47,625 nucleotides of DNA from NCBI RefSeq assembly GCF_016462415.1, contig NZ_JAEMTF010000011.1:16993-64617 (forward strand), in the 5' to 3' direction. The stretch comes from Williamsia sp. Lineage in GTDB: Bacteria > Actinomycetota > Actinomycetes > Mycobacteriales > Mycobacteriaceae. Shown here in pieces: positions 19,144 to 38,302 of this stretch (its first letter is position 1; each line of letters starts with the position of its first letter). Position numbers and translations under genes: made by a program. The notes under the pieces were generated by a model, which was given only the letters and a program-made list of their open reading frames with translations, did no database searches and was not told the origin of the DNA.

Positions 19144-19148
19144 CGCTA

Positions 19149-20597: not shown

Positions 20598-21148
20598 TTC
20601 AGCCTTTCCGATTTCGCGCCGATGGTGGGCCCGGGCACGAACGACGCGCGCCGGAGGTGTGGTTGCGGTCGATCCCGGCAACGTTGCCGGACCCGTCGGA
20701 TGCCCCGCTCTTTCGGAGATGACCGATTCGGGGAGTAGACAAATGGTAGGCAGACCGGGCCGATGTTGTTTACCTTGGTAACGAGTGTTCTTCATCACTG
20801 ACATCGTCGGCGAGCCGTACCGCGACGGCCGCGACGTCGCGGTCCACGGACGAAGTGTTGAGCGACAACAGTATTCGACGGTTGGTGAGCCTTGTCACCG
20901 ATTGTGTCTGCGGTGTGGCGACATCGGAAAACGCGCTCCCTTTGAGTCGTCGAGATCGCATCCAGGTTACGGCCGCGTGACATTGCGCCGTACAACCGAA
21001 CAAGTGCGCCCGGGGTGACGCACTCCGGGTCGCGACGCCGTTCCGACTCGGCTGATCGGCCCCTAGACTCGGCCCAGATCGCGGACACCACAGAGGATCT
21101 GACGGCGACACGCGACGATGTCGCGACGAATCGATCGAGGGGACAGAC
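20598..21148. promoter_or_regulatory. 551-bp divergent intergenic region of module 1 with operator-like site
   Basis: No gene is supported in this stretch; open frames here lack homology and coding bias. It separates the C3-C2-C1 operon (minus) from the ABC exporter operon (plus). It contains the inverted repeat TTACC-TT-GGTAA at 20770-20781, which looks like a binding site for a small dimeric repressor such as TetR. It also has base composition visibly lower in GC than the flanking genes around 20700-20950. No regulator gene is present in the cluster. Confidence 0.45.
21041..21069 (+). promoter_or_regulatory. Candidate promoter of the ABC exporter operon
   Basis: TTCCGA (21041-21046) and TAGACT (21064-21069), separated by 17 bp, resemble an actinobacterial housekeeping promoter (TTGACA/TANNNT). 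Transcription would begin near 21076, giving a leader of about 73 bases ending in GAGGGGACAG before the ATG at 21149. Confidence 0.35.
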
Positions 21149-22105: not shown

Positions 22106-22917
22106 CCGCGATCTCGACGGTGGCGAACATCGACACGCGCACGCCCACCGCCCGTCAGGTGACCCCGCTCGAGGCCATCACCCAGTCGGCCACGATGGCC
22201 GGTCGGGGACTGCTCAAGATCAAGCACAACCCGCAGCATCTGTTCGACGTCATCGTCCTGCCGATCGTGTTCACCGTGATGTTCTCCAGCATCTTCGGCG
22301 GGGCGATCGCCGGTGACGTCACCGGCTATCTCCCGATCCTGATCCCGGGGGTTCTCGTGCAGGTCGCGCTCGCGGCCTCGGTCACGACCGGCGTGCAGCT
22401 ACGTGAGGACATGAACAAGGGTGTCTTCGACCGCTTCCGCTCGTTGCCCATCGCGCGTATCGCGCCACTCGCCGGTTCGCTGCTCGCCGACGTCCTGCGC
22501 TACGTGGTCGGCACCACGATCACCGTCATCGTCGGCGTCATCATGGGGTACCGACCGGCCAGCGTCGTCGGCGTCGTACTCGCGTGTGTGCTGGTCGTCG
22601 TGGTGGCATTCGCGCTCAGCTGGATCTTCGCGCTGATGGGTGTGGTCATGGAGAAGGCGTCCACGGTGCAGGGGGTGTCGATGCTGGTGCTGATGCCGTT
22701 GACGTTCATGTCCAACGCCCTGGTCCCGGTGGCCACGATGCCGGGGTGGATGCAGGCGTTCGCCGGGGTGAACCCGGTCTCGCACCTGGTCTCCGCGGTG
22801 CGGGAGATGGCCGACGGACGCTACGGGATGCAGATCGTGTGGTCGTTGCTCGGTGCGGCCGTCGTACTGATCGTGGTGGCCCCGTTGACGCTTCGGGTCT
22901 ACATGCGCCGCGCCTGA
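22102..22917 (+). CDS. ABC-2 type transporter permease (DrrB type)
   Basis: Membrane partner of the preceding ATPase, 271 residues with about six transmembrane helices. Typical ABC-2 features are the N-terminal KIKHNPQHLFDVIVLPIVF, the EDMNKGVFDRFRSLPIARIAPL coupling segment, and SNALVPVATMPGWMQAFAGVNPVSHL before the last helix. The same blocks recur in the second permease (KFKHSPQLLVDVIIVPIIY, EDIDKGMLDRFVSMPISRIAPL, SNAFVPTSTLPGW), showing common ancestry. It ends 14 bp from the converging GT2 gene. Confidence 0.9.
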   Translation: MTAISTVANIDTRTPTARQVTPLEAITQSATMAGRGLLKIKHNPQHLFDVIVLPIVFTVMFSSIFGGAIAGDVTGYLPILIPGVLVQVALAASVTTGVQLREDMNKGVFDRFRSLPIARIAPLAGSLLADVLRYVVGTTITVIVGVIMGYRPASVVGVVLACVLVVVVAFALSWIFALMGVVMEKASTVQGVSMLVLMPLTFMSNALVPVATMPGWMQAFAGVNPVSHLVSAVREMADGRYGMQIVWSLLGAAVVLIVVAPLTLRVYMRRA

Positions 22918-22936
22918 GGCGGCGGTGTCGCTCAGG
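22913..22936. terminator. Small hairpin spanning the stops of convergent permease and GT2 genes
   Basis: CCTGAG (22913-22918) pairs with CTCAGG (22931-22936) around a 12-base loop. The stem covers the permease stop codon and reaches into the 3' end of the oppositely oriented glycosyltransferase. It could terminate transcription from both sides, though it is short. Confidence 0.4.
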
Positions 22937-23816
22937 GCATGATGCGGTCGGTGGTCCGCCGCAGCAGGTGACGCGGTGCGAACGTCTGCGTCTCGGCGTC
23001 GTAGCTGCGGATGAGGATCAGCCGGGCGGAGTGCATCAGCGTCACCCACGGGACGTAGAGGGTGATCGAACCGAGCGCGAGTGCATACCGTTTGTGCAGC
23101 AGGAAGGTTCGGGGCAGGAAGCTCATGTAGCGGACGAACGAGCCGACGCTGCTCTCCATCCGACGCGGCGACACACCGACCCCGAGATGGGGCAGGAAGG
23201 CGTTGCGACCACCGATCTCGCCGACGCACAACCCCGTGTCGACGTCCTCGAAGATGTCGCGGCGCATGCTCACCGAGTCGCGGATGGCCAACCATGTGTC
23301 GCGTCGGAGCACCATGTTCGACCCGTACAACACGAAGACCGGCTTCACCTCGACCTGCTTGTCGTGTCTGCGTGCGGCGAAGGGCAGGAACGCGATCCGC
23401 TCCTTGAGCCGCGACATCGCGTCGCCGTAGGGGAGCCCGTAGGCCTCGCCGCGGCCACACAGAGCGGCCCAGTGGCAGTCGGTGTCGGCGTCGAGGAACT
23501 CGACGATGTCGGCGGCCCATCGCGGCCCGACCATGGTGTCGGAATCGATGCGGGCGATGGCCGTACCGGTCGCCGCGTCGAGACCTGCGTTGCGCGCGAA
23601 CACCAGTCCCTGTTGCTTCTCGGAGATCAACCGGATCACCGGGTACCGGTCGACGTACGTGGCGACGATGTCGACGGTCTTGTCACCGGAGTTGTTGTCC
23701 ACCACGACGATCTCGTGGATGTGATCGAGCTGGGGCAGGAGGCGATCGAGACAATCGGCGATCACGTCTTCCTCGTCATACGTGGGGATCACCACGGACA
23801 GTTGCGTCGTCGACAT
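22932..23816 (-). CDS. Family 2 glycosyltransferase (GT-A fold)
   Basis: A 294-residue GT2 enzyme. LSVVIPTYDEEDVIADCL and EIVVVDNNSGDKT form the nucleotide-binding half. RIDSDTMVGP supplies the metal-binding DxD (DSD). FEDVDTGLCVGEIGG is the acidic acceptor-site motif where the catalytic base lies. The C-terminus has hydrophobic helices (FLPRTFLLHKRYALALGSITLYVPW), suggesting membrane association and a lipid-linked acceptor. It has no counterpart in module 2. The ATG at 23816 follows GTAGGAAGAC. It probably adds a sugar to the glycolipid core on the cytoplasmic face; the sugar donor is unknown. Confidence 0.82.
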   Translation of the reverse strand: MSTTQLSVVIPTYDEEDVIADCLDRLLPQLDHIHEIVVVDNNSGDKTVDIVATYVDRYPVIRLISEKQQGLVFARNAGLDAATGTAIARIDSDTMVGPRWAADIVEFLDADTDCHWAALCGRGEAYGLPYGDAMSRLKERIAFLPFAARRHDKQVEVKPVFVLYGSNMVLRRDTWLAIRDSVSMRRDIFEDVDTGLCVGEIGGRNAFLPHLGVGVSPRRMESSVGSFVRYMSFLPRTFLLHKRYALALGSITLYVPWVTLMHSARLILIRSYDAETQTFAPRHLLRRTTDRIMP

Positions 23817-23943: not shown

Positions 23944-25212
23944 TCACCCTCCGGTCGGCAGGGCGGTCTCGATGATCTGCACGGCCGCCTCGACGGCCCG
24001 GGTCGGCTCGATGAGCCGACGGCTCAACGACTCTGCCGCGGCCCGCGACGCCGGTGCCAGGGCGGCGACGAGTGACTCGCGCAAGGATGCCGCGGTCAGT
24101 GCGGCGAGCGGACCGCTGACCCCGGCACCCGCACGCGCCACCCGCTGTCCCCACATGGGCTGATCGGCGCCCAGCCAGCACACGACGGCGGGCACCCCGG
24201 CGCGCAGACCGGCCGCGGTGGACCCGGCACCCCCGTGATGGACCGTGACCGCGCAGCGGGGCAGGACGGCGTCGTGGTCGACCGCGCCGACCACGTGGAT
24301 CCGGTCGTCGGAGACATCAGCCATGAAGTCGCTCCAGCCGGTCGCCACGAGCACACGATGTCCCTGCGTTCCGCGCACGATGGCGTCGGCGAGCCGTGCG
24401 GGATCGTCGACGGTCATGCTGCCGAACCCGACATAGACCGGCGGGTCGCCGGCATCGAGCCAGGTCAGGAGTTCGGTGGACGGCGCATCCGTCCCGACCA
24501 GGGCCCGCGTCGGCGCGGTGAGGTTGAGGAATCCAATCAGCGGGCGACCCGCGCCCCACTCGTCGGACAGCCCGGGGAACAGGCCCGGGTCGTAGGCCTG
24601 GATCTCGGGGACGCCCTGGTCGGCGATCCGACGCGCCGTGGACCTGCGCGTGGCCGGTAGATCGAGATCGGAACGCAGACGGTTCTCCCCGGCTCGGCTG
24701 GTCTGCCACAGGATCTGCTCGAGCAGTCGCCACGATGCACGGGACACCGTCGGGGGCGGGTGCAGACCCCACTGTGCGAGCGGTGAGGCCACCCCGTTGG
24801 TCCGCATGGGGCAGTAGTGGACCGGCAGGTAGGGCACACCGAGCGCCTCGGCCACGGTGAGCGAACGTTCCTGGCCGACGCTGCCCCCGATGATCGCGTC
24901 GGCGCCGACGCTGATCTCGGCGAGATCGGCCTGCGCCGCGCGACTGCCGAGGTGGGTCACCTCGGCCACGGCCCGCATGCGTACGACGGGATTGCGCGAC
25001 TTGAGGTCTCGGGTGACGAGCTCGGAACCCAACAGTGCCCTGGTGTCGGTTCCGCACGGTACGGCGTGTAGACCGGCGGCGCGGGCGAAGTCAACCAGAT
25101 TGGGTGGCACCGCCATTCGCACGGTGTGACCCCGAGCACCCAATGCGACCGCGAGCGCGACACCGGGCTGGACGTCGCCGCGGCTGCCGTTGAACGACAG
25201 GACCAGTTCCAT
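23944..25212 (-). CDS. GT1-family glycosyltransferase, module 1 (NGSRGDVQP type)
   Basis: A 422-residue UDP/TDP-sugar-dependent GT-B enzyme similar in layout to the glycosyltransferases of mycobacterial glycopeptidolipid and phenolic glycolipid loci. The N-terminal acceptor domain begins LSFNGSRGDVQPG. The C-terminal donor domain has PPVYVGFGSM, the HHGGAGST motif, and DQPMWGQRVA. ATG 25212 was chosen because it begins the conserved strand and because the minus-strand TACGGT lies exactly seven bases upstream, as for a leaderless mRNA. It is paired divergently with an acyltransferase-like gene. The paralogue at 33659-34921 shares the N-terminal GSRGDVQPG and the HHGGAG block. Confidence 0.88.
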   Translation of the reverse strand: MELVLSFNGSRGDVQPGVALAVALGARGHTVRMAVPPNLVDFARAAGLHAVPCGTDTRALLGSELVTRDLKSRNPVVRMRAVAEVTHLGSRAAQADLAEISVGADAIIGGSVGQERSLTVAEALGVPYLPVHYCPMRTNGVASPLAQWGLHPPPTVSRASWRLLEQILWQTSRAGENRLRSDLDLPATRRSTARRIADQGVPEIQAYDPGLFPGLSDEWGAGRPLIGFLNLTAPTRALVGTDAPSTELLTWLDAGDPPVYVGFGSMTVDDPARLADAIVRGTQGHRVLVATGWSDFMADVSDDRIHVVGAVDHDAVLPRCAVTVHHGGAGSTAAGLRAGVPAVVCWLGADQPMWGQRVARAGAGVSGPLAALTAASLRESLVAALAPASRAAAESLSRRLIEPTRAVEAAVQIIETALPTGG

Positions 25213-25251: not shown

Positions 25252-26577
25252 ATGCGGCGCCTCGAATCCCAGGACATGACTTACTGGTTCGTCAACCGTG
25301 CCTTCGACTGGTCGGTGGTGTTGCAGCTGGTGTGGACGTTCGACGAGGCGCTCGATGTCGCGGCTCTGGCGCAGATGAACGCCGAACTCGCCGCCGGTTC
25401 ACTCAACCGCCGGGTGGTGCTGCCGTCGGTGCCGATCGCCCGTCCACGGTGGTCGCACTCACCCGAGACGCCCGATGTGCTCGTCGACACGCGGCCGATC
25501 GCGCCCGACGAGATCGAGGCCTGGGCGGACGGAGAACTCGAGACCGTGCCGCTCGATCCGGTGGCAGGCTCCGCGTGGCGACTGCGCGGGGCCCCGACCG
25601 TCGACGGCGGGTTCGTCGTGTCGTTGACCGCCCTGCACCTGGTCGCCGACGGACGCGGGATGGTCGCCGCAGCGGCTTCGGCCGTGGCATCGGACGGTCC
25701 GGGCGACCCCATCCCGGTCGCCACGGGGCGGGCCCCCGTCGCCGACCTGGGCGACGTCCTCACGGTTCTGTCGCAGGCGGGTGCCGGAGTCGCCAGGGCG
25801 CTCGCCGGTGCCATCACCTCGACGACCGGCGACGACACCCCGGCGCCCCCGGCCCGCGCCGTGCGAGCGCCCATGCACGAACGGTCCCCCCTCGCCCGCA
25901 CCCGGTGGGCCATCGTGTCGGTGTCGGCGAAGGCCTGGGAGCAGGCGGCCCGGCGCCACCACGGAACGTCGAACATCTTGTTCGTCGCGGTCATCGCGGG
26001 TGCGCTGCGGGTCGCCGGGCACATCCCGGCGGACGAGCCCGTCAAGGTCGGCATACCGGTGAGCAGGCGTGTCGACGGCGACGACAGCGCGAACGCCACG
26101 GCCGGCGTCTCGGTGATGGTGCTCGACGAGGCCGCGGCGGGAGGAGACCTGACCGCGCTGCGGAGACTGTGCAAGCGCGCCTACGAACGGCTGGCCGCGG
26201 GACGCCGCCCCGCGATGATGCACCTACGGCCCCTGATGAACGTGCTCCCGGTGTCGGTGGTGGCGACGGTGGCGACCGCAGGCAACGGGATGCCCGACGT
26301 GATGACCTCCAATCTGGGTGTCTTCGGACCGGAGGTGGCCACGATCGGGGGTCAGACCGCCTCGGCGGTGGCGTTTCGGGGCGACGCCCAGGGGGTCGAC
26401 CCCGATCAGCACCACCGGTTCGGCGACGGTCTGCAGTCGTGGTCGGTGCAGGTGGGCGACACGCTCACGTTCTCGGTCGCCGCGTTCGACGAGTCCGCCT
26501 TCCCCGACGCCCCGGCGTTGCGGGCGGGGATCGCCGCCGAGCTCGACGCGTGGGGTGTCGTTCATCGCATCTGGTGA
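25252..26577 (+). CDS. Condensation/WS-DGAT-like acyltransferase A (module 1)
   Basis: A 441-residue protein related to the broad condensation/wax-ester-synthase acyltransferase superfamily. The presumed active site is LHLVADGRG (HxxxDG), and a second motif, TSNLGVFG, sits where WS/DGAT enzymes have SNxPGP. IPVSRRVDGDDSANATAGVSV is also shared with the genes at 26621 and 34926. I favour ATG 25252 over ATG 25240 because a TATGCT -10 box lies seven bases before it. It is transcribed divergently from GT1. Overall similarity to characterised enzymes is low, so acyl transfer is a fold-based inference. Confidence 0.65.
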   Translation: MRRLESQDMTYWFVNRAFDWSVVLQLVWTFDEALDVAALAQMNAELAAGSLNRRVVLPSVPIARPRWSHSPETPDVLVDTRPIAPDEIEAWADGELETVPLDPVAGSAWRLRGAPTVDGGFVVSLTALHLVADGRGMVAAAASAVASDGPGDPIPVATGRAPVADLGDVLTVLSQAGAGVARALAGAITSTTGDDTPAPPARAVRAPMHERSPLARTRWAIVSVSAKAWEQAARRHHGTSNILFVAVIAGALRVAGHIPADEPVKVGIPVSRRVDGDDSANATAGVSVMVLDEAAAGGDLTALRRLCKRAYERLAAGRRPAMMHLRPLMNVLPVSVVATVATAGNGMPDVMTSNLGVFGPEVATIGGQTASAVAFRGDAQGVDPDQHHRFGDGLQSWSVQVGDTLTFSVAAFDESAFPDAPALRAGIAAELDAWGVVHRIW

Positions 26578-26620: not shown

Positions 26621-27979
26621 GTGTATCGCGTAACGGGCAACGACGAGTCATATCTGTTGGCACAGAAGCTCTTCGGGATGTCCGCGCCGATCCAGTACTG
26701 TTGGATCCTGCCCGAGGACCCCGGTGAGACGGCCCTGTTCGACCTGAACGACCAACTGGCACAGGGCATCCTCGCACGCCGGGTGGCCGACCCGCGGGTG
26801 CCGTTCGCGCGAGCCCGATGGGTGCGGTGTGACACCGCACCGCGGCCGCGACTCGAGACCGCCCCGGTGGACGACTCGTCCACCTCGGACTGGTTCGACG
26901 ACCGTGTCCGCTCAACCCGACTCGATCCGGTGTCGGGATACGGCTGGCAGCTCGATGCCGCACCCACCTCGGCCGGTCGGTACGCGGTCTCGCTCCTGGT
27001 CTCGCACATGACCTCGGATGGTCAGGGTATCTACCGGGCGCTTGCCGCGGCCCACGCACACAGCTCGCGCAATCCGTTGCCGCCCGCGTCGGCCGCGACC
27101 GGGATGACCGGTCTCCGTGCCGATCTGACGGATGCCGGCGGTCAGATCGCTGCTGCGGCGCGGTCGCTGCGTGTCCTTGCGGGGGCCGCTCTCGCCGCGC
27201 GTCGCGGTGCGGGCGCCCCGTCGTCGGCGGCACCCGAGCAGGTCGAGGGTCCGCCGGCGGTCGCATCGCGGGTTCCGGCCGACGACCCGGCCCCGGAACC
27301 GACGCTGGCGATCTACGATCTCGACCGCGGGGAGTGGGCCGCGCGGGCCGCCGAGTTCGGCGGGACGACGAACAGTCTGTTCACCGGTGTCATCGGAGGA
27401 CTCGTGCAGCGGGCCGGGGTCCGGTCCGCCGACGGGGTCATGCGGGTGTGCATCGCGGTGAGCAAACGCGAGGGGGACGACGACGATCGTGCGAATGCCT
27501 CCGGGGGAGTGTGGATCCGGGTCCCGGGTGCCATCGGGCCGGATGTGGGACTCGGCGGGATCCGCGCCCTGAGCAAGCAGGCCTTCGTCGACTACGCGAC
27601 CTCCGGCGACCGGCAGGTCGCCGACAACGTGCAGCCGATCGTGCGGCTGCTGCCGTCTGTGATCATCGGCCGTCTGATGGCGAAGCTCGCCGGGCCGGAC
27701 ACGACGGTGTCCAACCTGGGGGAGGCGCCGGCGACCGCTCTCGAGATCGGCGGCGTCACCGCGGAATCGTTCGTGATCCGTGCCCTCATGCAGGGACAGC
27801 CGGCGCAGGTCCGCAGGGAGAAGGGCCCCGCCCTGGCCGCGTGGGCGGTCGAGTACGCCGACAAGGTGAGTGTGGCCTTCTTCGGCATCGATCCCGACCA
27901 CTTCGGTGACCCCGACGCCCTGCACCGCGACATCAGAGCCGAACTCGACCGCTGGGGGTTGTCGCACTCGGCCTGGTGA
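26621..27979 (+). CDS. Condensation/WS-DGAT-like acyltransferase B (module 1)
   Basis: A 452-residue paralogue of acyltransferase A, in tandem 43 bp downstream. The active-site candidate is VSHMTSDGQG (HxxxDG), with TVSNLGEAP as the SNLG element and ISKxxxDDDRANASGG-type block (VSKREGDDDDRANASGG). The N-terminus (DESYLLAQKLFGMSAPIQYCW) corresponds to the DDDLFIRMDRALGVP region of the module 2 member. It starts at GTG 26621 and is probably leaderless. Its 3' end converges with the C1' gene. The tandem pair suggests two different acylation steps or a heterodimer; substrates are unknown. Confidence 0.65.
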   Translation: MYRVTGNDESYLLAQKLFGMSAPIQYCWILPEDPGETALFDLNDQLAQGILARRVADPRVPFARARWVRCDTAPRPRLETAPVDDSSTSDWFDDRVRSTRLDPVSGYGWQLDAAPTSAGRYAVSLLVSHMTSDGQGIYRALAAAHAHSSRNPLPPASAATGMTGLRADLTDAGGQIAAAARSLRVLAGAALAARRGAGAPSSAAPEQVEGPPAVASRVPADDPAPEPTLAIYDLDRGEWAARAAEFGGTTNSLFTGVIGGLVQRAGVRSADGVMRVCIAVSKREGDDDDRANASGGVWIRVPGAIGPDVGLGGIRALSKQAFVDYATSGDRQVADNVQPIVRLLPSVIIGRLMAKLAGPDTTVSNLGEAPATALEIGGVTAESFVIRALMQGQPAQVRREKGPALAAWAVEYADKVSVAFFGIDPDHFGDPDALHRDIRAELDRWGLSHSAW

Positions 27980-28008: not shown

Positions 28009-29355
28009 TCAGACGGGGGCGGTCAGCAGCGACGCGTGACCGTGCCGCAGCTGGTCTGACGCAATCCGGATGAGGTCGTCGACCAGGGTGTGCACCACCG
28101 TCGAGGCGGTCTCGGTGTCGGGGAAGCGGGTGCGCAGGTGCACGCCGTTCTCGTCCCTCCAGAACCACAGCTGCACCGTGTCGGCGCGGCCGTCGCTCGA
28201 CACGTGGTGCACGTTCATCGTCGGCAGCCCGTCGAATCGCCGGTAGTCCAGGTAGGACACCATGAACACGTCGTGTCGGGTCTTGCGCAACCGGTGACCG
28301 AATGTGCCGTAGACCGTGGTCAGGTCCACCTCGGCGAGCGGCAGGGCTGCCGCCAGGGCGTCGGTGGCCGATCGCATCGATGACACCAGGTCGTTCGAGG
28401 CGTCGAGGACGAGCGGCGCATTCGCGACGAACCAGCCGACCGAGCGCGACCAGGTGTCGGTGCGCCGGGTGTGGACCGGCAGGATCAGGGGCAACTTCTC
28501 CGGGCCGCCGAGATCGCGGGTGGCCATCGCCAGGCAGGCCAGCAGCGCGGGGTAGAAGCGGATCCCGCGGTCGGCGGCGGACGCCGAGAAGGTCGCGGCG
28601 TCCTGCGCCGACAGGACGGTCTCGACGTGGATGCGGGCGGGGGCGAACTCGCCCTCGGCGACCCCGAGGTCGATCGGGAACTCCGGGACGTGCCAGTCGG
28701 TGGCGGTCAGGAAGTCGTTCCAGCCGACGATCCGGGCGTCGGTGTCGGACAACTCCCCGCCCGCCTCGGCGGCCTGGTGCTCGAGGTAACTGCCTGCCGG
28801 TCGCAGGGTCTCGCCGCGGTAGGCGTCGGTGATGTCCTCGGCGATCACGGCGAGCGAGTGCGCATCGACGTAGCAGTGGTCGAACGCGCAGATGATCGTC
28901 GTGGTGTCGGCGTGTTCGAGCGCTGCGAGAACGTGCGACGCCGGCGACAGCGCGGTGCACCCGTCGACGATGGTCGTCCCGATGAGGTCCTTGCAGGTAG
29001 AGGCATCGACGTCGGAGATGGTCTCCGCGACCGACACCGCCAGGTCGCCGGGTGCGTGCAGCAGCCGGCGCACCGTACCGTCGCCGTCGGTGACGAAGTG
29101 GGCGCGCAGCACCTCGTGGTGGTCGAGAACTGCTTCGAAGGCGCGCTGCATCGCCACGAGATCGATTGTGGGCGAATCGATGTCGAACGTGACGGCCAGC
29201 CATCCCGATGCGCCGTCGGCGACGGCGTCGAGGTGGAACCGCTCGTTCTCCGACGGGCCGGTGGTGTGGGGGGCCGCGACACCCGCGGCGGTCGTCGTCC
29301 ACCGGTGCAGACGGCCGCCCGGCACGTCGAGGTTGGCGAAGGTCGTCAGTCTCAT
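28009..29355 (-). CDS. PapA-like acyltransferase, type C1' (module 2)
   Basis: A 448-residue counterpart of C1. Active site FDHCYVDAHS (His160, Asp164), with Ala after Asp as in C1. MRLTTFANLD and TTTIICAFDH align with C1, and LPLILPVHTRRTDTWSRSVGWFVANAPL and VSYLDYRRFDG give the later conserved blocks. Its ATG overlaps the C2' stop by four bases (29352-29355). It is the last gene of the module 2 triad. Confidence 0.8.
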   Translation of the reverse strand: MRLTTFANLDVPGGRLHRWTTTAAGVAAPHTTGPSENERFHLDAVADGASGWLAVTFDIDSPTIDLVAMQRAFEAVLDHHEVLRAHFVTDGDGTVRRLLHAPGDLAVSVAETISDVDASTCKDLIGTTIVDGCTALSPASHVLAALEHADTTTIICAFDHCYVDAHSLAVIAEDITDAYRGETLRPAGSYLEHQAAEAGGELSDTDARIVGWNDFLTATDWHVPEFPIDLGVAEGEFAPARIHVETVLSAQDAATFSASAADRGIRFYPALLACLAMATRDLGGPEKLPLILPVHTRRTDTWSRSVGWFVANAPLVLDASNDLVSSMRSATDALAAALPLAEVDLTTVYGTFGHRLRKTRHDVFMVSYLDYRRFDGLPTMNVHHVSSDGRADTVQLWFWRDENGVHLRTRFPDTETASTVVHTLVDDLIRIASDQLRHGHASLLTAPV

Positions 29356-30767
29356 CGGTCACCCCCTGAGGTCGGGACGAGGTCGGCGCGTGCGGCGTGC
29401 TCGGCCAGAATGGCGCCGACCCGGTCGTGGAGCTCGGTCACCGAGGCGCGTGCGGCGACGGTGTCGGGCAGGTGTGACAACAGTCGGAGGCCATCGTCGT
29501 TGCGGTTGATCCAGAGGTTGGCGTTGCGGGTGCGACCCACGCCCGGGATGACCTGACCGCCCGCGATCTCCGGCGAGGTCTCGTCGGCGAGTCGTCGGAA
29601 GTCGAGGTAGGACACCATCTGTGGGCTCCCGTCGTCCGGGACGAAATCGCCCTGCGCGGCCAGCAGTCCGAGAACCGCATGCACCGGGACGGCTTTGAGG
29701 TCACGGGTGCGGCGCAGTGCGTCGGACGCGATCAGCACGAGGTCGTCGAAGTCGTCGCCGGCATCGGCCCGGAAGGCCACCGGCGCGAAGGTGCACAGCC
29801 ATCCCTGCGTCCCGGGCAGTTCCGGATCGCGGGTCGAGAGGACCGTCGAGGTGAAGTAGGCGGGGTCACCGGTGATCTCGTACTCCGCCCTGGCCAGAGC
29901 GGCGAAGAGCGCGCCGAGCAACGAGCCTCCGAGTGCCCGCGCACGTCGCTCGCACGCGGCGGTCGCCTCGGCGGAGGCGAGAGGGCGGTCGATCGCGATC
30001 GCGTCTAGGGTGTCCGGTCCTGTTAGCCCCAGGTCGAGTTTGGAACGTGGAACGGTCCGACCGTGATCGGCGAGAATCGATCGCCACGTCTCCACGCGCG
30101 GGTCGTCGGGCGAGACCAGAGCAGCCCTGCGGTATTCGTCGGCGATGTAGTCGAGGTGACTGCCGGCGGCGAGAACGTCTGCCGCGGTGCCGGATCGGTG
30201 GGCCCGATACCGCGCGAAGAGCTCGCCGAGAGCCCCGATGGAAGCGGTCCCGTCGGTGTGCGAGTGATCGGACACGACGTAGAAGCCGAACGACTCGCCC
30301 GCGTCGATCGCACCGAAGGCGACCCCGGGCAGCCGGTCGTGGACCGCCTCGGAATCGATGCGGGTGTGCAGGCGGTCGATCAGTGTGGCGTGGTCGCCGG
30401 ACGGGCCCGTGGCAACGGTGTCGAACTCGATTCCGTCGGGGGCGGCAACCCGTCGCACGATGGCGTCGGACGACACCTCGAAGAAGCTGCGGACCTCGTC
30501 ATGGGCGCGGACGAAATCGGTGATCGCCACCCGCATCGCCTCGCGGTCCAACGGCTCGTCGATGTCGGTGGCCATCATCACCACGGCTCGATGCGGCGCA
30601 CCGGTGGCGCGCTTGGCCGTTGCCGCGACGAGGTGGTCACGCTGGAGAAAGGACGGACCCACCGGATGCACAGGAGCACCCTCGGTGACGGCGGAACCGT
30701 CCCGGAGTCGCCATTCGACGAGTTCTCCTGCCGCGGGATACCACTCCCGCAGCGTGCCCGCGATCAC
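29352..30767 (-). CDS. PapA-like acyltransferase, type C2' (module 2)
   Basis: A 471-residue counterpart of C2. The true start is the GTG at 30767, which overlaps the C3' stop by four bases (GTGA at 30764-30767) and gives MIAGTLREWYPAAGELVEW, alignable with the C2 N-terminus. An open frame runs much farther upstream inside C3' but is antisense-free noise. Active site SDHSHTDGTA (His168, Asp172) has the canonical Gly, as in C2. Shared blocks: FLQRDHL, DPAYFTSTVLSTRDPELPGTQGWLCTFAPVAF, and LNLWINRNDDG-like ending (NANLWINRNDDG). Confidence 0.8.
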   Translation of the reverse strand: MIAGTLREWYPAAGELVEWRLRDGSAVTEGAPVHPVGPSFLQRDHLVAATAKRATGAPHRAVVMMATDIDEPLDREAMRVAITDFVRAHDEVRSFFEVSSDAIVRRVAAPDGIEFDTVATGPSGDHATLIDRLHTRIDSEAVHDRLPGVAFGAIDAGESFGFYVVSDHSHTDGTASIGALGELFARYRAHRSGTAADVLAAGSHLDYIADEYRRAALVSPDDPRVETWRSILADHGRTVPRSKLDLGLTGPDTLDAIAIDRPLASAEATAACERRARALGGSLLGALFAALARAEYEITGDPAYFTSTVLSTRDPELPGTQGWLCTFAPVAFRADAGDDFDDLVLIASDALRRTRDLKAVPVHAVLGLLAAQGDFVPDDGSPQMVSYLDFRRLADETSPEIAGGQVIPGVGRTRNANLWINRNDDGLRLLSHLPDTVAARASVTELHDRVGAILAEHAARADLVPTSGGDR

Positions 30768-32278
30768 GACGTGCGGCCGCCCGGTTGCGCTCCAGGGGCG
30801 GACATCGCGGTCTCGACGTCGAACGCGGTGTCGCCGGCTTCGACGATCTCGAGGAGCACATCGTTGAAGGTGCGCAGGAACCGGTGCACGTCGTCGGCGC
30901 CGGGGTGGTGGCTCGGGAAACGGGCCGAGAGGTTGGTCCCGGTCGGGATCCGGTTGATCCAGAAGTAGACCTCGTCCGACGACGCGGACGCGCTGCGCAG
31001 CACGCGGGCGTCGTGGGTGTCCCACTGATCGGCGCCCTCGGCGCCGCGGAGGTCGATGTAGGAGACGACGAACTGCGGCGGGGTGCGGTGCCCGATCAGG
31101 TCGGCGATCGGGTGGAACGGGACGGTGCCCAGATCCTTGTACTCGCGTGCGCACTCGGCGACCGGCCCGATGGCCTCGGAGAAGGTGCGTGCGCCGCCCG
31201 GCCGCAGATGCACGGGGATCAGCCCGACGAACCATCCGGCGGCCTCGCCCCACTGCAGCTCGGTGCGGGTGTGGACGGGGCTGATGAAACGCAGGTCCCC
31301 GGTACCCGAGAGTCGGTGCGTGGTGATCGAGAGGGCGGTGTAGATCCCCGCGGCCATGTTCGCGCCCGCCGCCTTCGAGGCACGGTGGAACCGTTCGGTC
31401 TGCTCGGCGTCGAGCAGCCAGGTCGACAGGCTGCCCTGGAAGCGGGAGTGGGTGGTCTCGACGCGCGAGAGCGGACCGACCTGGGATTCCGACGCGGGCA
31501 GCGCGCGCGGGAACGCGGGCATCGGGTCCGGCTGGGTCACCGCAGTGGCATCGGAGTGTGCCTGCAGGAAGTTGGCCCACCGGGTCACCTCGACGGTGTC
31601 GGCGGCCAGACGGGCGCCGTGGGCTCGCTCGGCGTGGCTGAAGTCGAGGTAGCTGCCGAAGGTGGCGAGGGAGTCGTCGTGTCCCAGCAGGGCCGACTCG
31701 TAGAGCCGCGTGAGCTCCTTGATCGCGAACACCTGCGTGTAGGCGTCCATCACGGTGTGATCGGCGCCGAAGACCAGCAGGAACGACCCCGGGGTGTCTT
31801 CGGGCTCGACCGTCGTGACCAGGCAGTGTGGCCACGCCAACGGACTGATACGGGTGTTGAACAGCTCATTGATGCGTTCGTAGACCGCGCTGCTGGTCGA
31901 GGGCTCCTCGTCCCGCGCGATCGCGATGCTCACCTTGTCGGCCGCGATGATGCGGCGTCCGAACTCGTCCTCGACGTGATCGGCGGCCACATCGGGGTGA
32001 CGGGTCACCGTCGAGCGGAAGGCCTCGTGCCTGGCGAACCACCGCTGCAGGGTCGCCGCCATGGCATCGGCGCAGAGCGGGTGATCGATCGTGAACGCGG
32101 TGCCGATCCACTGGCTGTACCACTCGTCGCCGACCGCGTGGGCGCGACGAGCGTGCTCGAGGTGGACGTAGGACAGGCGTCGTTCGTCGTCGGCCCAATC
32201 GTGGTCATCGGCGGTCGGTGTCCACTCGGTGACCGTTCCGGCCGGAAGCGGATAGTCGGCGAGCTCGGTGTACTCCAT
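30764..32278 (-). CDS. PapA-like acyltransferase, type C3' (module 2)
   Basis: First gene of the second triad, 504 residues. The ATG at 32278 is preceded by AAGGAGATCTCCTC, a strong Shine-Dalgarno. MEYTELADYPLPAG, SPLAWPHCLVTTV, FGADHTVMDAYT (His174, Asp178) and RFISPVHTRTELQWGEAAGWFVGLIPV align with C3. The Ala following the catalytic Asp is conserved between C3 and C3'. Together C3'-C2'-C1' form an operon in which each junction is a four-base overlap, implying fixed stoichiometry of the three products. Confidence 0.82.
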   Translation of the reverse strand: MEYTELADYPLPAGTVTEWTPTADDHDWADDERRLSYVHLEHARRAHAVGDEWYSQWIGTAFTIDHPLCADAMAATLQRWFARHEAFRSTVTRHPDVAADHVEDEFGRRIIAADKVSIAIARDEEPSTSSAVYERINELFNTRISPLAWPHCLVTTVEPEDTPGSFLLVFGADHTVMDAYTQVFAIKELTRLYESALLGHDDSLATFGSYLDFSHAERAHGARLAADTVEVTRWANFLQAHSDATAVTQPDPMPAFPRALPASESQVGPLSRVETTHSRFQGSLSTWLLDAEQTERFHRASKAAGANMAAGIYTALSITTHRLSGTGDLRFISPVHTRTELQWGEAAGWFVGLIPVHLRPGGARTFSEAIGPVAECAREYKDLGTVPFHPIADLIGHRTPPQFVVSYIDLRGAEGADQWDTHDARVLRSASASSDEVYFWINRIPTGTNLSARFPSHHPGADDVHRFLRTFNDVLLEIVEAGDTAFDVETAMSAPGAQPGGRTS

Positions 32279-32522: not shown

Positions 32523-33578
32523 TTATCCGGTTACGCCCAAACCGCGCGAAAGCGTCGGCCAGCTGCGATGCAATTGATCGTTCCAGTAGGGCCACGAATG
32601 TGATCCCCGCGCCTCGAAGTCGAAGGTCGCCGGAATCCGCTTGGCGGCGAGCGTGTCGGCGAGTCTGTGGGTGCAGAAGTTCGCACCCGCCTCGATGGCG
32701 CCGCCCACGATCAACCGGTCGGCGGGGTTGGTGTTGCCGGGGTAGTTGGGTGCGTCGTAGGGGCCGGGCAGGCCACTGCCGACCGACACGTAGACCGCGG
32801 AGCCGCGGAGTCCGTCGGCGTGCAGGAGCACGTCGTGGGCGGCCCAGGCCGGGTTGTTCGGTGCGCCCCACATGTTGGTCGCGTCGCCGCCGAATGCGGC
32901 GACGATGGCGCGCGGGATGCCCTGCGAGACGATGTCGGCGGTCGAATAGCACCCGCTGTAGGAGCCGACCGCCTGGAAGAACCCGGGCTTGCGGGCGGCC
33001 AGGGTGAGAGCGGAACCCGCACCCATCGAGAGGCCGGCGACACCGTGAATCCCGTTACCCGAGAACTGCTTGTCGAGCAGCGGTGGCAGCTCGCGGGTCA
33101 GGAAGGTCTCCCAGCGGTAGCGTCCGAGCTTCGGATCGTCCCGCTGCCAGTCGGTGTAGAAGCTGCCGTTGCCCGCCAGCGGGAGGGCCACCGTGACGTT
33201 CTTGTCGCGGAAGAACGTCGCCGCGTCGGACTTGCGCAGCCACATGCTGTTGGTGGGGTCCTCCTCGCCGAGCCCGCTCAGCATCGTCAGCACCGGCCGC
33301 GGTCCCGACTGCGTGCGCGGGACGAGAACCTGCACCTTGATCGTCTTCGCCATCGACGCCGAGTACACGTACACGCCGAACTGGGTCGGGCCCTCGGACA
33401 CGACGCGTTCGATGGAGGAGACCGATGGCGCGGCCGCCGCGGTTGCCGACAAGGATGTGGCGATACACAATGAAGTCAGCGCCGCGATGAGAAATGTCAC
33501 AGATCTCCGTGAACGCAACGGCCGAGTGGGGCGCATCATCGGAGATGTCCTCGTTACGCGGCTGATTTCTGAGTGCAT
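32523..33578 (-). CDS. Secreted mycolyltransferase (antigen 85/Cmyt-type esterase), copy 2, inside the cluster
   Basis: A 351-residue antigen-85-like enzyme. The ATG at 33578 has AAGGA six bases upstream; a second good start (ATG 33539 after GAGGA) would give a shorter leader. A basic n-region and hydrophobic core (FLIAALTSLCIATSLSATAA) form the signal peptide. The nucleophile elbow is GLSMGAGSA; VALPLAGNGSFYTDWQRDD and the His-containing HSWPYWNDQLHRSWP complete the family signature. Its position within module 2 suggests it acts on, or adds a mycolyl chain to, the glycolipid after export. The gap to the upstream GT1' gene is 80 bp. Confidence 0.88.
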   Translation of the reverse strand: MHSEISRVTRTSPMMRPTRPLRSRRSVTFLIAALTSLCIATSLSATAAAAPSVSSIERVVSEGPTQFGVYVYSASMAKTIKVQVLVPRTQSGPRPVLTMLSGLGEEDPTNSMWLRKSDAATFFRDKNVTVALPLAGNGSFYTDWQRDDPKLGRYRWETFLTRELPPLLDKQFSGNGIHGVAGLSMGAGSALTLAARKPGFFQAVGSYSGCYSTADIVSQGIPRAIVAAFGGDATNMWGAPNNPAWAAHDVLLHADGLRGSAVYVSVGSGLPGPYDAPNYPGNTNPADRLIVGGAIEAGANFCTHRLADTLAAKRIPATFDFEARGSHSWPYWNDQLHRSWPTLSRGLGVTG

Positions 33579-33658: not shown

Positions 33659-34921
33659 TCACGCGGTTCGCTCGAGTATTTCCGCGACCGAGGTGATGGC
33701 GCGGAAAGGCTCGATCATTTGCTGTGCAAATGTACGACTTCTGAGCGCGGTATCGGGGTCGAGAATTCTGCGGATGAGATCCGGCAGCGCGGTCCCGTCG
33801 ACCTGTGAGACGCCGCATGTGGCCCCCAGTCCGGTCTCGCTGATCGCGCGTCCCCACAACGGCTGATCGGCGCTGAACGCCGCGATCAGGCTCGGTACCC
33901 CGGCCCGCGCGCAGGCCCCGGTGGTCCCGGCACCCCCGTGGTGGACGGCAGCGACGCAGCGGGGCAGTACGAGCCGGTGGTCCACAGCTCCGACCACCAT
34001 CACCTCGGGGTTCGCGAGACGCCCGGCGATCGCGTCGGAGTTGGGTCCGGCGCACACCAGGACGCGGTGTCCCTGTGCGCGGATCGTCTCGGCGATGTGG
34101 GTGAACGTGGTCGCGGCGTCGGCGAGCGGCATGCTGCCGAACCCGACGTACACCGGCGGCGAGCCCGCGTCGAGCCACGTCGAGACCTCGTCGGACGGGT
34201 GATCGCCCTCGGATGCGGGCAACGTCACGAAGCCGGTGAGCGGCCGCTGTGGCCCCCACTCGGCGGCGAGCGTCGGGAACAGTCCGGGGTCGTAGGCCTG
34301 GATCTCCGCGGTGCCGGCGCTGCGGAGTCGTCCGCCGAGGGGCCCGGAGGCGGCGGCCATGCCCAGACGCTGTCGCAGCGCGACGTCGCCGCGCCGCGCC
34401 GAGCCCAACCAGAAGGCGTGGTCGACCAGCCGCCACACCGCCTTGCTGAGCGGTGGCACCGCCCGCAGGGCGGCCAGCGGACCGAGCGGCACCGGGACAC
34501 TTCGGCTCGGCCGGACGGGGCAGTAGTGCAGGGGCACGAACGCCGCGTCGCGGAACTCGGCCACCGTCGCGCCACGCTCCTGGCCCATCAGGCCGGTGAC
34601 GACGAGGTCGGCGCCGTCGGCCATCTCGAGCAGCCGCTCGTCCATCGTGGCCGCGCCGAACTCGGTCACCTCGCGGATGGCCCGCGCGCGCGTACGGGGG
34701 TTCGACGACTTCAGGTCACGCTTGATCAGCGGGGACCTCAGCAGGTCGTCGGTGTCCGGGGCGAACATCTGCGCATCGACTCCGTGTCCCCGGGCGAAGT
34801 CGACGAGGTTCTCCGGGACACCGACGACCACGTCGTGTCCCCGGTCGGCCATCTCCAGCGCGACGGCGATGCCCGGCTGCACGTCGCCCCGGCTGCCGTT
34901 GAGGGCCAGTGCGAGCCTCAT
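33659..34921 (-). CDS. GT1-family glycosyltransferase, module 2
   Basis: A 420-residue GT-B enzyme paralogous to the one at 23944-25212. The start MRLALALNGSRGDVQPG, central YDPGLFPTLAAEWG (YDPGLFPGLSDEWG in the paralogue), VYVGFGSMP, HHGGAGTTGACARAGVP and FSADQPLWG are shared. It starts 4 bp after the stop of the acyltransferase-like gene upstream, so it is translated with it. Its last 30 codons are less GC-rich than the rest. It probably glycosylates the same class of acceptor as its paralogue with a different sugar or position. Confidence 0.88.
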   Translation of the reverse strand: MRLALALNGSRGDVQPGIAVALEMADRGHDVVVGVPENLVDFARGHGVDAQMFAPDTDDLLRSPLIKRDLKSSNPRTRARAIREVTEFGAATMDERLLEMADGADLVVTGLMGQERGATVAEFRDAAFVPLHYCPVRPSRSVPVPLGPLAALRAVPPLSKAVWRLVDHAFWLGSARRGDVALRQRLGMAAASGPLGGRLRSAGTAEIQAYDPGLFPTLAAEWGPQRPLTGFVTLPASEGDHPSDEVSTWLDAGSPPVYVGFGSMPLADAATTFTHIAETIRAQGHRVLVCAGPNSDAIAGRLANPEVMVVGAVDHRLVLPRCVAAVHHGGAGTTGACARAGVPSLIAAFSADQPLWGRAISETGLGATCGVSQVDGTALPDLIRRILDPDTALRSRTFAQQMIEPFRAITSVAEILERTA

Positions 34922-34925
34922 CCGT

Positions 34926-36299
34926 TCACCACTCCCGTGGCGTCAGGGACCAGCGGGCCAGTTCGGCGTGCAGGATCGACGACAACGACGTGCGGCCCAG
35001 GGCGTCGGGGTCGAGGCCGATCACCGACACGGTCGTCATCTGACCGGTGTCGTTGACCCACGCGGCGAGTCCGCCACGCAGTTCGCGCAGGCGGGCGGTG
35101 CTGATCGCCTGAGTCGTCGACCGCGTGACGATCCCGCCGACCCGGGTGGGGTCTCCGAGCCCGGCCAGGTGGTCGTCGAGGGTGCCGAGGTTCGAGGCCA
35201 GTGCCAGCGGGGTGGTGGCCCCCTTGCTCAGTGCGGCCACGGCGCGGTCCCCGAGCGCCTGCATCATCGGCTGGAGCCGCACGAACGTGCCCGGCCGGGC
35301 GGTACGCTGGGCGTACACGTCCTTCGACAGCGCCCGGATGGTCGCCAGGTCCTGCTCACGGGCGGCCGATGCGGGTACGTCGAGCGAGAGCCCCAACGTG
35401 GCGTTCGCCCGGTCGTCGGGGACGCCACCGCGCAACGACATCGGGATCGAGATCCGCACGATGTCGTCGTCGCCGGCGCGGCCGCCCGCGACGAGCATGC
35501 CGACCACGACGGCGATGAAGAGGGTGTTCGACGAGCCGCCCGCGGCGGCGGCAGCGGCCGCCCATTGTTCGGTCGGGATGCTCACGATGGCGACCGGGGC
35601 CAACCCGAGGTCGTCGTCGGGTGCGGCTTCGGGATCCCGGGGGACGACCCGGCTGCTCCGTGCCGACAGGGGGGCCTTCTCGTCGCCGTCGCCGTCGGTC
35701 GATGTCCTGGCGCGCGCGGAGATCGCCCCACGGGCCAGGGCGACGAGGTTGCGGGTGATGGCGCCGGCCTGTGTCGCGGCGTCGGCGGCCTGGTCGATCA
35801 GCCCCGGCGACCGCGCCGCGAACGTCGAGGAGGTCGTGGTGTCGAGGGCGGCCCGGACGGCGTCGAGTACCGCCGAGCCGTCGCCGGCCGCGTGGGCGAC
35901 GCACAGCGAGACGACCGCGCCTCCGGAGACCAGCGGCGCCGAGCGCAGTTCCCACACCGGGCCCTCGGTCAGATCGAGTGGACGGGACGCGGCCGCGTCG
36001 ATCCACGCGACGATCGCATCATCGGCCACGGCCTCGGGGTCGGCGACCAGTCGGCCCGACGCGGGGCCGGCACCGACCCAGTGATCTCGCACCAGGGGCA
36101 GGCCGGTCCGGCGCAGCAGCCGCCCGAGACGCCCTGCCGCCAGCCGACCGAAGAGCGCTTCGAGCTCGCGTTCACCCGGTGCCGACGTCAGCCGCCAGAC
36201 CATCTGGTTGACGACGGGCACACCCAGGGCGCGGTCCATCCTGATGAAAAGGTCGTCGTCGGCGGTGGTGCGCAGCACGGGTGGTGTGCGGTCGGGCAC
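34926..36299 (-). CDS. Condensation/WS-DGAT-like acyltransferase (module 2)
   Basis: A 457-residue relative of the tandem genes at 25252 and 26621. Motifs: CVAHAAGDGSAV (HxxxDG), ISIPMSLRGGVPDDRANATLGLSL and LASNLGTLDD (SNLG). The GTG start at 36299 follows a perfect AGGAGG. It lies between the permease gene (39 bp upstream) and GT1' (4 bp downstream), all on the minus strand, so it belongs to one long operon. Pairing of this family with a GT1 gene in both modules argues for a shared step. Acyl transfer is inferred from the fold motifs only. Confidence 0.65.
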   Translation of the reverse strand: MPDRTPPVLRTTADDDLFIRMDRALGVPVVNQMVWRLTSAPGERELEALFGRLAAGRLGRLLRRTGLPLVRDHWVGAGPASGRLVADPEAVADDAIVAWIDAAASRPLDLTEGPVWELRSAPLVSGGAVVSLCVAHAAGDGSAVLDAVRAALDTTTSSTFAARSPGLIDQAADAATQAGAITRNLVALARGAISARARTSTDGDGDEKAPLSARSSRVVPRDPEAAPDDDLGLAPVAIVSIPTEQWAAAAAAAGGSSNTLFIAVVVGMLVAGGRAGDDDIVRISIPMSLRGGVPDDRANATLGLSLDVPASAAREQDLATIRALSKDVYAQRTARPGTFVRLQPMMQALGDRAVAALSKGATTPLALASNLGTLDDHLAGLGDPTRVGGIVTRSTTQAISTARLRELRGGLAAWVNDTGQMTTVSVIGLDPDALGRTSLSSILHAELARWSLTPREW

Positions 36300-36338: not shown

Positions 36339-37157
36339 TCAGAGCTTGCGCAGATAGATGCGCACGGTGAGCGGCGTCGCGATCGCCATGATCAGCAACG
36401 AACCGACCACCGAGTAGACGAGATGGTGGTCGACCTGTCCCTCGTTGGAGAGCAGGCGTACCGCGGAGATCAGCTGGGACAGCGGATTGACCTCGGCGAT
36501 GGGCCGCAACCACCCCGGTAACGTGCTGGTGGGCACGAACGCATTCGAGGTGAAACCCAGGATGGTCAGCAGCAGTGCCGAGAACCCCTGCACGGCCGAA
36601 GCTTTCGTCAGGACGACTCCCATGAGCGCGAACACCCAACTCAACGCGAACGCGGAGAACACGACGAGGGCCGCCGACGCGAGCACGCCGAGCGGGCTCG
36701 CCGGGCGGTATCCCATCGCCACGCCGGCGGCGACGGTGATGACGACCGCGATCAGGTACCGCAGGTTCGCGGCGACGAGTCCGCCCGCCAACGGTGCGAT
36801 ACGTGAGATCGGCATCGACACGAAGCGGTCGAGCATGCCCTTGTCGATGTCCTCCCGCAGTTGGATGCCGACGACGACGGTCGAGGTTATCGCCACGTTG
36901 ACCAGCACGCCGGGGATCAGGGTGGGCAGGTACGTCGTCACGTCCCCGGCGATGACACCGCCGAAGATGCTGCCGAACAACACGGTGTAGATGATCGGCA
37001 CGATGATGACGTCGACCAGCAGCTGCGGGGAGTGCTTGAACTTGAGCAATCCCCGTCGCGCCAACGTGGCGGTGTCGCGGATCGCCTTGCCCGCACTGAT
37101 GTTCTCGGTGACCGTCGCCGTGGGGATCGCCGCGAAGACGTTCTCGGTCGAGGTCAT
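36339..37157 (-). CDS. ABC-2 type transporter permease (DrrB type), module 2
   Basis: A 272-residue membrane protein with about six helices, paralogous to the permease at 22102. The ATG at 37157 overlaps the ATPase stop by four bases (ATGA), and gives MTSTENVFAAIPT; the open frame continues upstream in the ATPase gene without homology. Shared blocks include LLKFKHSPQLLVDVIIVPII, REDIDKGMLDRFVSMPISRI and GFTSNAFVPTSTLPGW. It probably flips or exports the acylated product. Confidence 0.9.
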   Translation of the reverse strand: MTSTENVFAAIPTATVTENISAGKAIRDTATLARRGLLKFKHSPQLLVDVIIVPIIYTVLFGSIFGGVIAGDVTTYLPTLIPGVLVNVAITSTVVVGIQLREDIDKGMLDRFVSMPISRIAPLAGGLVAANLRYLIAVVITVAAGVAMGYRPASPLGVLASAALVVFSAFALSWVFALMGVVLTKASAVQGFSALLLTILGFTSNAFVPTSTLPGWLRPIAEVNPLSQLISAVRLLSNEGQVDHHLVYSVVGSLLIMAIATPLTVRIYLRKL

Positions 37158-38302
37158 TTCTTGCTCCGGTCTTCGGTGAGGGCGAGGAAGACCTCGTCGA
37201 GCGAGGGCGAGTGGACGCCGAACTCTCCCACGGTGATCCGTCGGGAGGACAGGGCCGCGATGACCTGTGCCGCACGGGCGGAGTCGGGGACCGGCGCGGT
37301 CAGCTCGCCGGTACGGCGGTCGATGTCCACCGAGTGGCCGAGGAGCTCCTCGATCGTCGCGGCCGCGGCCTGGGTGCTGCCGGGATCGGCAAGACGGATG
37401 GACAGGGAGAAGCTGCCGACGGACCTCTTGAGAGTCTCGGGGGTACCGCGACCGACCACGCGCCCGTGGTCGATGACGACGAGGTGGTCGGCGAGGGCGT
37501 CTGCCTCGTCGAGGTACTGGGTGGTCAGGACGACGGTGGTCCCGGCCGCGACGACATCGCGCACGATCTCCCACAGCTGCGTACGCGTGCGGGGATCGAG
37601 TCCGGTCGTCGGTTCGTCGAGGAACAACAGGGCCGGACGATGGATCATGCTCGCCGCGAGATCGAGGCGTCGGCGCATGCCGCCGGAGAAACCCTGGACC
37701 GGACGGTTCGCCGCGTCGGCCAGTCCGAACTGGTCGACCAGTTCTCGGGCCCGTCGGCGCGCCTGCGACCCCTTGAGACCGAGCAGTCGGCCGTAGATGT
37801 CGAGGTTCTCCAGAGCCGTCAGGTCGTTGTCCACCGACGCATACTGTCCGGTGAGCGAGATCAGGGAGCGGACCGCGGTGGAATCCTTGGCCACGTCGCG
37901 ACCCAGGATCCGCACCGATCCGGCGTCGGGTCGAAGCAGGGTCGCGAGCATCCGCACGATCGTCGTCTTGCCGGCGCCGTTGGGACCCAGCAGGCCCAGA
38001 ACCGTGCCCTCGGGGACGACGAATTCGACGTCGTCGACCACCTTCTGGTCGCCGTAGGTCTTGCTCAGGCCCGACACCTCGACGGCCAGAGGGCCGACAG
38101 GTCGGGGCCGGTTCGGCGGTGGCTGCCGCGGTGGTGCCTGCCGTGGCGGCGGTGGTGGCTGTCGCCGTGGTGGCGGTGGTGCCTGCCGCGGAGGCGCAAC
38201 CGAGCGCGCGGACGTCTCCTGACCGGCGAACACGAAACCGTCCGGGTCGCCCGCCGTGTCGTCGTCGCGCCGTGAATGTCGTCCGAGACGCTCTTCGGTC
38301 AT
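37154..38302 (-). CDS. ABC transporter ATP-binding protein (DrrA type) with proline-rich N-terminal extension, module 2
   Basis: A 382-residue ATPase. The ATG at 38302 follows GGGGGAAAG, a good ribosome binding site. Residues 1-35 are hydrophilic, and residues 36-71 are a Pro/Arg/Gln-rich low-complexity segment (APPRQAPPPPRRQPPPPP and similar). The ABC domain starts near residue 72 with VSGLSKTYGDQKVVDDVEF. Walker A GPNGAGKTT, signature GFSGGMRRRLD and Walker B LLFLDEPTTGLDPR are intact. The extension is absent from the module 1 ATPase and could be a protein-interaction tether. It is 123 bp downstream of maf on the same strand. Confidence 0.9.
   Translation of the reverse strand: MTEERLGRHSRRDDDTAGDPDGFVFAGQETSARSVAPPRQAPPPPRRQPPPPPRQAPPRQPPPNRPRPVGPLAVEVSGLSKTYGDQKVVDDVEFVVPEGTVLGLLGPNGAGKTTIVRMLATLLRPDAGSVRILGRDVAKDSTAVRSLISLTGQYASVDNDLTALENLDIYGRLLGLKGSQARRRARELVDQFGLADAANRPVQGFSGGMRRRLDLAASMIHRPALLFLDEPTTGLDPRTRTQLWEIVRDVVAAGTTVVLTTQYLDEADALADHLVVIDHGRVVGRGTPETLKRSVGSFSLSIRLADPGSTQAAAATIEELLGHSVDIDRRTGELTAPVPDSARAAQVIAALSSRRITVGEFGVHSPSLDEVFLALTEDRSKK
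38090..38197 (-). repeat. Low-complexity DNA encoding the proline-rich linker of the module 2 ATPase
   Basis: Imperfect tandem copies of short units built on GGTGGxxGxCG encode repeated PPRQ/PPPP blocks. The repetition could expand or contract by slippage, so length may vary among strains. Confidence 0.6.

Follow-up and report, generated by a model that had tools for sequence, protein, structure and literature searches.

A MytC-like mycoloyltransferase gene next to a row of PapA-type acyltransferase genes in Williamsia and Gordonia

Mycoloyltransferases of the Corynebacteriales occur as paralogues whose exact in vivo specificity is termed still elusive, and the acceptors named for mycolate are trehalose monomycolate (TMM), arabinogalactan and protein (PMC11927696). 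MytC is mycoloylated on its serine to give the acyl-enzyme, and it modifies the porin PorA; when TDM formation from TMM was followed, a very small peak was obtained with MytC and a clear peak with MytA (PMC11927696). In Mycobacterium tuberculosis, PapA3 helps to build diacyltrehalose inside, and on the outside Chp2 attaches further chains through transesterification (PMC4183827). Chp2 (Rv1184c) and Chp1 (Rv3822) are serine enzymes with an alpha/beta-hydrolase fold encoded in the acyltrehalose and sulfolipid clusters; Chp2 acts on the periplasmic side, and the enzymes have a cutinase-like motif, a Ser/Asp/His triad, an N-terminal membrane anchor and the glycolipid itself as donor (PMC4183827). 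In Rhodococcus, TlsA and the papA3-papA1 genes, a row of PapA-type genes, are proposed for succinoyl trehalose lipids, and in strain I2R the papA genes (contig 9) and the listed mycolyltransferase (contig 5) are on different contigs (PMC8396431).

Here we describe a mycoloyltransferase gene, called MycT in the following, in a stretch of 47,625 nucleotides from Williamsia sp. (the window). PapA-type genes are likewise arranged in a row in the window and, unlike in strain I2R, the mycoloyltransferase gene adjoins them. MycT resembles Chp1 and Chp2 in being a serine enzyme of the alpha/beta-hydrolase-fold encoded with a PapA pathway, but PF00756 (Esterase, 2.8e-31) is its sole Pfam match and its triad is Ser-Glu-His, which places it outside the Chp1/Chp2 type. 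The mycoloyltransferase family is well known; the linkage of one of its subfamilies to a PapA row is apparently new. We recognised no such arrangement among open-access papers, considered by title and beginning of the abstract and, for PMC8396431, PMC9009618, PMC11927696 and PMC4183827, by passages of the text.

The MycT gene, its neighbours and its predicted protein

The nearest named relative found was Williamsia maris DSM 44693 (94%). Along the window, accA3 (11562) is followed by a PapA-type gene, SufE, SseA, an island of about 22 kb, Maf and accD5. The island contains acyltransferases, glycosyltransferases (two GT28, one GT2) and two ABC-exporter sets. The features are as follows.

10055–11095, minus strand: second mycoloyltransferase of the window, with a GISSSASS elbow, triad and Cys pair kept, near MytC in the tree
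13443–14855, minus strand: PapA-type acyltransferase between accA3 and SufE
16293–20804, minus strand: three further PapA-type acyltransferases (16293–17648, 17629–19143, 19149–20804)
21149–22917, plus strand: second ABC ATPase and permease pair
22932–23816, minus strand: GT2 glycosyltransferase
23944–25212, minus strand: second GT28 glycosyltransferase
25291–26577, plus strand: putative acyltransferase of the 34926 family (start chosen by us)
26621–27979, plus strand: putative acyltransferase of the 34926 family
28009–29355, minus strand: third PapA-type acyltransferase of the row (Pfam Condensation 1.7e-18; 4-nt overlap)
29352–30767, minus strand: second PapA-like acyltransferase (4-nt overlap with the 30764 gene; homology to the Pap profile)
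30764–32278, minus strand: PapA-type acyltransferase, Pap_30764 (HxxxD at residue 174; Pfam Condensation 1.2e-19)
32523–33578, minus strand: MycT, mycoloyltransferase by sequence (signal-like N-terminus; Antigen-85/Myt fold in the predicted model; triad Ser171-Glu283-His314)
33659–34921, minus strand: GT28 / EryCIII-like glycosyltransferase (PF06722 1e-14, PF03033 6.2e-07)
34926–36299, minus strand: putative acyltransferase (HxxxD at 136; WS_DGAT 0.0022, below cut-off)
36339–37148, minus strand: ABC-2 type permease, DrrB-like (start approximate)
37154–38302, minus strand: ABC transporter ATPase, DrrA-like (start approximate)

Condensation matches were found in six genes of the window (13443, 16293, 17629, 19149, 28009 and 30764), and HxxxD, a loose pattern, is present in all ten acyltransferase-type proteins. 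The best solved match of the Pap profile is PapA2 (6.6e-69). The 29352–30767 protein has no Pfam match and was assigned by comparison with the Pap profile (hhalign E 2.8e-69).

The initial annotation had placed an open frame at 32523–33578 without naming a strand. The frame is present on the minus strand; a plus-strand gene in it is ruled out by three internal stops. Translation could start at an ATG at 33578, preceded by AAGGA, or at an ATGATG at 33539, preceded by GAGGA, and residues are numbered here from the ATG at 33539. MycT is located between the GT28/acyltransferase pair and the PapA-type acyltransferase operon; the GT28 gene upstream of it and the PapA-like gene downstream share its strand, just as described in the annotation. 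The gap between MycT and Pap_30764 is 244 nt in Williamsia. Scans for promoters and terminators returned 0 and 1 sites, respectively, which is the chance level.

Among solved structures, the MycT sequence matches Cmt1/MytC (9.4e-54, the best match), PS1/MytA (1.5e-42) and Ag85A (1.3e-30). The AlphaFold2 model of MycT has a mean pLDDT of 87.7, with values below 50 nearly throughout residues 1–34, and its predicted fold is of the Antigen 85 type: it superposes on Ag85A (1sfr_A) with Z 37.0 and an rmsd of 1.6 over 277 aligned residues, on MytA with Z 36.0 and on MytC with Z 34.6. No variation at S171, E283 or H314 was seen across 40 aligned rows. By eye, the N-terminus consists of a basic start, a hydrophobic stretch and an A-x-A-like end, and the same is seen in eight orthologues. 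Judged by its sequence, MycT is a mycoloyltransferase-type enzyme of the Antigen-85/Myt family, and it is putatively exported.

Linkage of MycT to the PapA operon

Co-occurrence of MycT and the PapA operon was analysed in 401 genomes sampled from the family, the window genome included. Cut-offs of E <= 1e-104 for MycT and E <= 1e-112 for Pap_30764 were used, both picked after the first match lists, and at most five MycT or three Pap first-look candidates were scored per genome. The MycT query matches 50 of the 401 genomes and the Pap_30764 query 31; below the Pap cut-off are paralogues of about 40–44%, for instance in genomes G042, G061 and G066. In 28 of the 31 Pap genomes MycT is located directly upstream of the Pap ortholog on the same strand, with a gap of 37–376 nt. 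The association is far above chance (Fisher p 3.5e-26, a descriptive value, with related species counted as independent).

Three Gordonia genomes (G407, G411 and G431) have the Pap operon without MycT. When they were rechecked with every candidate scored, the best matches were 43–45% identical and thus paralogues. The 34926-like gene and the Pap match are 816–885 nt apart in these genomes, compared with 1.4–3.3 kb in the 12 MycT-containing loci of this setting, and tblastn at 1e-8 detected no MycT remnant in the three loci. Since these Gordonia keep the PapA operon, MycT seems dispensable for the rest of the pathway. The other 22 genomes with MycT belong to one Rhodococcoides-type genus, and a Pap match at the cut-off was found in none of them. 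No other gene of the window was present in six stretches of that genus (L120–L125) and in 12 named Rhodococcus/Rhodococcoides loci (L026–L036, L052).

Gene order was read in 29 of the 31 Pap loci, that is, all except the window itself (G000) and G001. A 34926-like gene and a 29352-like gene are present in all 29, a 28009-like gene in 27 and MycT in 26. Three genomic settings were found. Seven loci (L091, L114–L119) are at the acc locus together with GT28 and ABC genes; for some of them the acc genes were seen in named copies (L014–L016). Another seven (L092–L098, of which L093 ends at a contig end) are at the acc locus and contain no GT28 or ABC match. The remaining 15 (L099–L113) are at a different place in Gordonia, where the GT28 and 34926-like genes point the opposite way and MycT heads the row MycT-Pap-Pap-Pap in 12 loci and is missing in three. 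The linkage of MycT and Pap thus persists in Gordonia although the genes are located elsewhere in the genome. From the gene order over the three settings we conclude that MycT is kept with the Pap genes and not with the glycosyltransferases. The annotation had suggested looking in other genomes for co-occurrence of the gene with the glycosyltransferase/exporter triads. A non-random distribution was indeed found, with the PapA genes as partner; the tie to the triads does not hold, and they are ruled out as the core of the linkage, because 7 of the 29 loci have no GT28 or ABC match and GT28 is divergent in the Gordonia setting.

Catalytic site, family tree and proposed function

An alignment of 128 rows, four references included, was used to compare the catalytic site across the family. 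The Ser-Glu-His triad is kept in every row, and we can therefore rule out that MycT is an inactive homologue. The elbows GLSMGAGSA in MycT and GISSSASS in the 10055 copy, which the initial annotation had set against each other, were read correctly; with the triad intact in all rows, this difference is ruled out as a mark of a broken site. Position numbers in the following refer to Ag85B, where we take Asp40 and Arg43 to be trehalose contacts. A Cys pair without an Arg at position 43 was found in 111 rows, MycT and MytC among them, and Asp40 plus Arg43 without the Cys pair in 16, comprising Ag85A, Ag85C, PS1 and 13 further rows; one row has neither. The 11 mycoloyltransferase matches in the Williamsia genome fall into five of the Cys-pair kind and six of the Asp40/Arg43 kind.

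The MycT family, delimited by a minimum identity to the protein encoded in the window, comprises 45 rows. All 45 carry the MytC-like Cys pair. Position 40 is occupied by Ser or Gly in the family and by Asp, Asn or Glu in the remaining 83 rows; at position 43 the family has Gly or Asn and never Arg. The Asp40/Arg43 pair of the TDM-forming type (Ag85, MytA) is thus absent from the whole family, and MycT has the MytC-type pattern of a Cys pair without the Asp/Arg pair, a pattern that we infer to define the type. The loop reads SGLGEED or close to it where others read DGLRAQD, and the 28 PapA-linked rows have the elbow SMGAG, the 17 Rhodococcoides-type rows SMGAQ. Corynebacterium glutamicum MytC (Cmt1; PDB 4H18, 8QHF) is like MycT in fold, triad and Cys pair and in having no Asp40/Arg43 pair, but has an Asn at position 40 and acts on the porin PorA. 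Ag85A/B/C and PS1/MytA share family, fold (best Z 37.0, 36.2, 35.9 and 36.0) and triad with MycT, whereas the loop of Ag85A, Ag85C and PS1 is DGLRA, with Asp40/Arg43, and these proteins lack the Cys pair. In MycT, the Cys pair together with the replacement of Asp/Asn/Glu at position 40 may point to an acceptor different from trehalose monomycolate.

A quick tree without bootstrap was calculated from 68 of the 128 rows, after removal of near-copies and of rows below 43% identity, references and the genome's own copies excepted. The 27 PapA-linked MycT rows in it form one clade (SH-aLRT 99) whose sister consists of 16 Rhodococcoides-type rows (SH-aLRT 98–99); the linkage label needs one change. 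MytC, a long branch, groups outside the MycT clade with the 10055 copy and a further copy of this genome on contig C138 (SH-aLRT 96–97).

The gene linkage suggests a dedicated finishing step of a surface glycolipid. We favour, at slightly less than even confidence, the reading that MycT is an exported MytC-like mycoloyltransferase with what the adjacent PapA operon makes as its dedicated acceptor. By analogy with MytC, it would carry mycolate from trehalose monomycolate, which is expected in these genera, to another acceptor, and since the PapA row adjoins MycT, the glycolipid is the likeliest one. MycT would then acylate the exported PapA-made glycolipid, probably with a mycoloyl group, and the principle is illustrated by Chp2, which acylates diacyltrehalose in M. 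tuberculosis. Cytoplasmic PapA enzymes would acylate a sugar, perhaps also glycosylated in Williamsia by the GT28/GT2 genes, and an exporter would bring the glycolipid to the outer side of the membrane. There, a covalent acyl-enzyme would form on Ser171 of MycT with the mycoloyl group of trehalose monomycolate, and this group would be handed to a free hydroxyl of the glycolipid. Export, donor, acceptor and the order of the steps are what we infer in this scheme, and mycolate as the moved group is assumed from the family membership of MycT. Several observations speak against a dedicated role: the absence of a Pap ortholog from all 22 genomes of the sister clade indicates an enzyme type independent of the cluster, MytC, to which MycT is closest in sequence among solved structures, acts on protein, three Gordonia keep the Pap operon without MycT, and the 244-nt gap makes co-transcription of MycT and Pap in Williamsia uncertain.

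The moved group might be a different one. MycT could transfer an ordinary or PapA-attached acyl chain between exported glycolipid molecules, as Chp2 does on the outer side of the membrane when it converts DAT to PAT within a PapA pathway (PMC4183827). The first place of MycT in the Gordonia row and the family's own loop and elbow would be in line with such a transacylation. However, every solved close relative of MycT is a mycoloyltransferase, and the cutinase-like motif and triad of Chp2 are unlike MycT. With trehalose monomycolate expected in these genera as well, we consider transacylation rather unlikely. An esterase that trims or recycles the cluster glycolipid instead of building it would be compatible with the breadth of the Pfam family, which includes esterases and S-formylglutathione hydrolases, but the nearest solved enzymes being mycoloyltransferases makes this the faintest of the candidates.

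The acceptor might be a different one, too. MycT could be a MytC-like protein O-mycoloyltransferase that is linked to Pap through co-regulation of envelope genes: MytC is its best solved match by sequence, the Cys pair and the GG-IEA region are common to both, and TMM is an inefficient acceptor for MytC (PMC11927696). We regard this as improbable, since MytC groups with other copies in the tree, albeit on a long branch, and since it leaves unexplained why 28 of 31 genomes have the link to one PapA gene, even where the locus has moved. It is highly improbable that MycT is a general TDM/arabinogalactan mycolyltransferase paralogue that came into the cluster by chance. The genome does have eleven matches, and sister copies exist without the cluster, but the linkage is conserved over genera and two places, and MycT does not have the Asp/Arg pair kept by six of the eleven genome copies, Ag85 and PS1/MytA.

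For the dedicated mycoloyltransferase we propose further, with somewhat more reserve, that in Williamsia and Gordonia the MycT subfamily adds mycolate to complete an as yet undescribed surface glycolipid, an acceptor that would be neither trehalose monomycolate, arabinogalactan nor protein. If true, a glycolipid class would be added to the mycolate acceptors named in PMC11927696, and a Gordonia missing only MycT from its PapA row should make an unfinished lipid. The three Gordonia with the PapA row and without MycT are natural knock-outs. The conserved gene order ties the subfamily with loop SGLGEED and elbow SMGAG to one PapA row, and the acceptor can therefore be sought in one lipid.

Further mycoloyltransferase copies, the acc locus and the 34926 family

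The statement in the annotation that Antigen-85-type genes usually stand alone is roughly right for this genome. Nine copies are located outside the window, two of them in tandem (C233). Near these nine, with 9–18 kb read and three stretches ending at contig ends, no Pap, GT28 or GT2 match was found beyond a divergent Pap-like gene (32%) about 0.5 kb from the C138 copy (L138:8127-10994); two weak ABC-ATPase matches are 5–6 kb from the C189 copy. The 10055 copy is on the accA3 side of the island. Copies 45–47% identical to MycT are present 18–23 kb from it in genomes G001, G002, G005 and G006, and a Rhodococcus marinonascens locus (L056) contains seven 10055-type matches on one strand within 12.3 kb.

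In more than one genus the accA3-SufE-SseA-Maf-accD5 region resembles a PapA gene hotspot (window 13443–38302; L127, L130, L131). Other Pap genes are present at the acc locus in L127, L130 and L131; in L132, Maf, SseA, SufE and accA3 are found within 3.9 kb, with no Pap genes in the stretch read. Two records have a questionable origin. The mycoloyltransferases of one named Kitasatospora arboriphila (L051, L085) closely resemble the Williamsia muralis enzymes, and the assembly is probably mislabelled or contaminated; the other (L047) is a metagenome-assembled Rhodococcus record that the origin table places in Cyanobacteriota.

Proteins 25291, 26621 and 34926 form a family of their own with HxxxD and no Pfam match above the cut-off. 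When this family was compared with the PapA profile, the match was not usable (probability 3.3), and the 34926 protein matches the Txo1 condensation domain weakly (0.0012 over about 90 residues). They are labelled acyltransferases because of the loose HxxxD pattern and the weak matches, and judging from these features they possibly represent an undescribed acyltransferase family.
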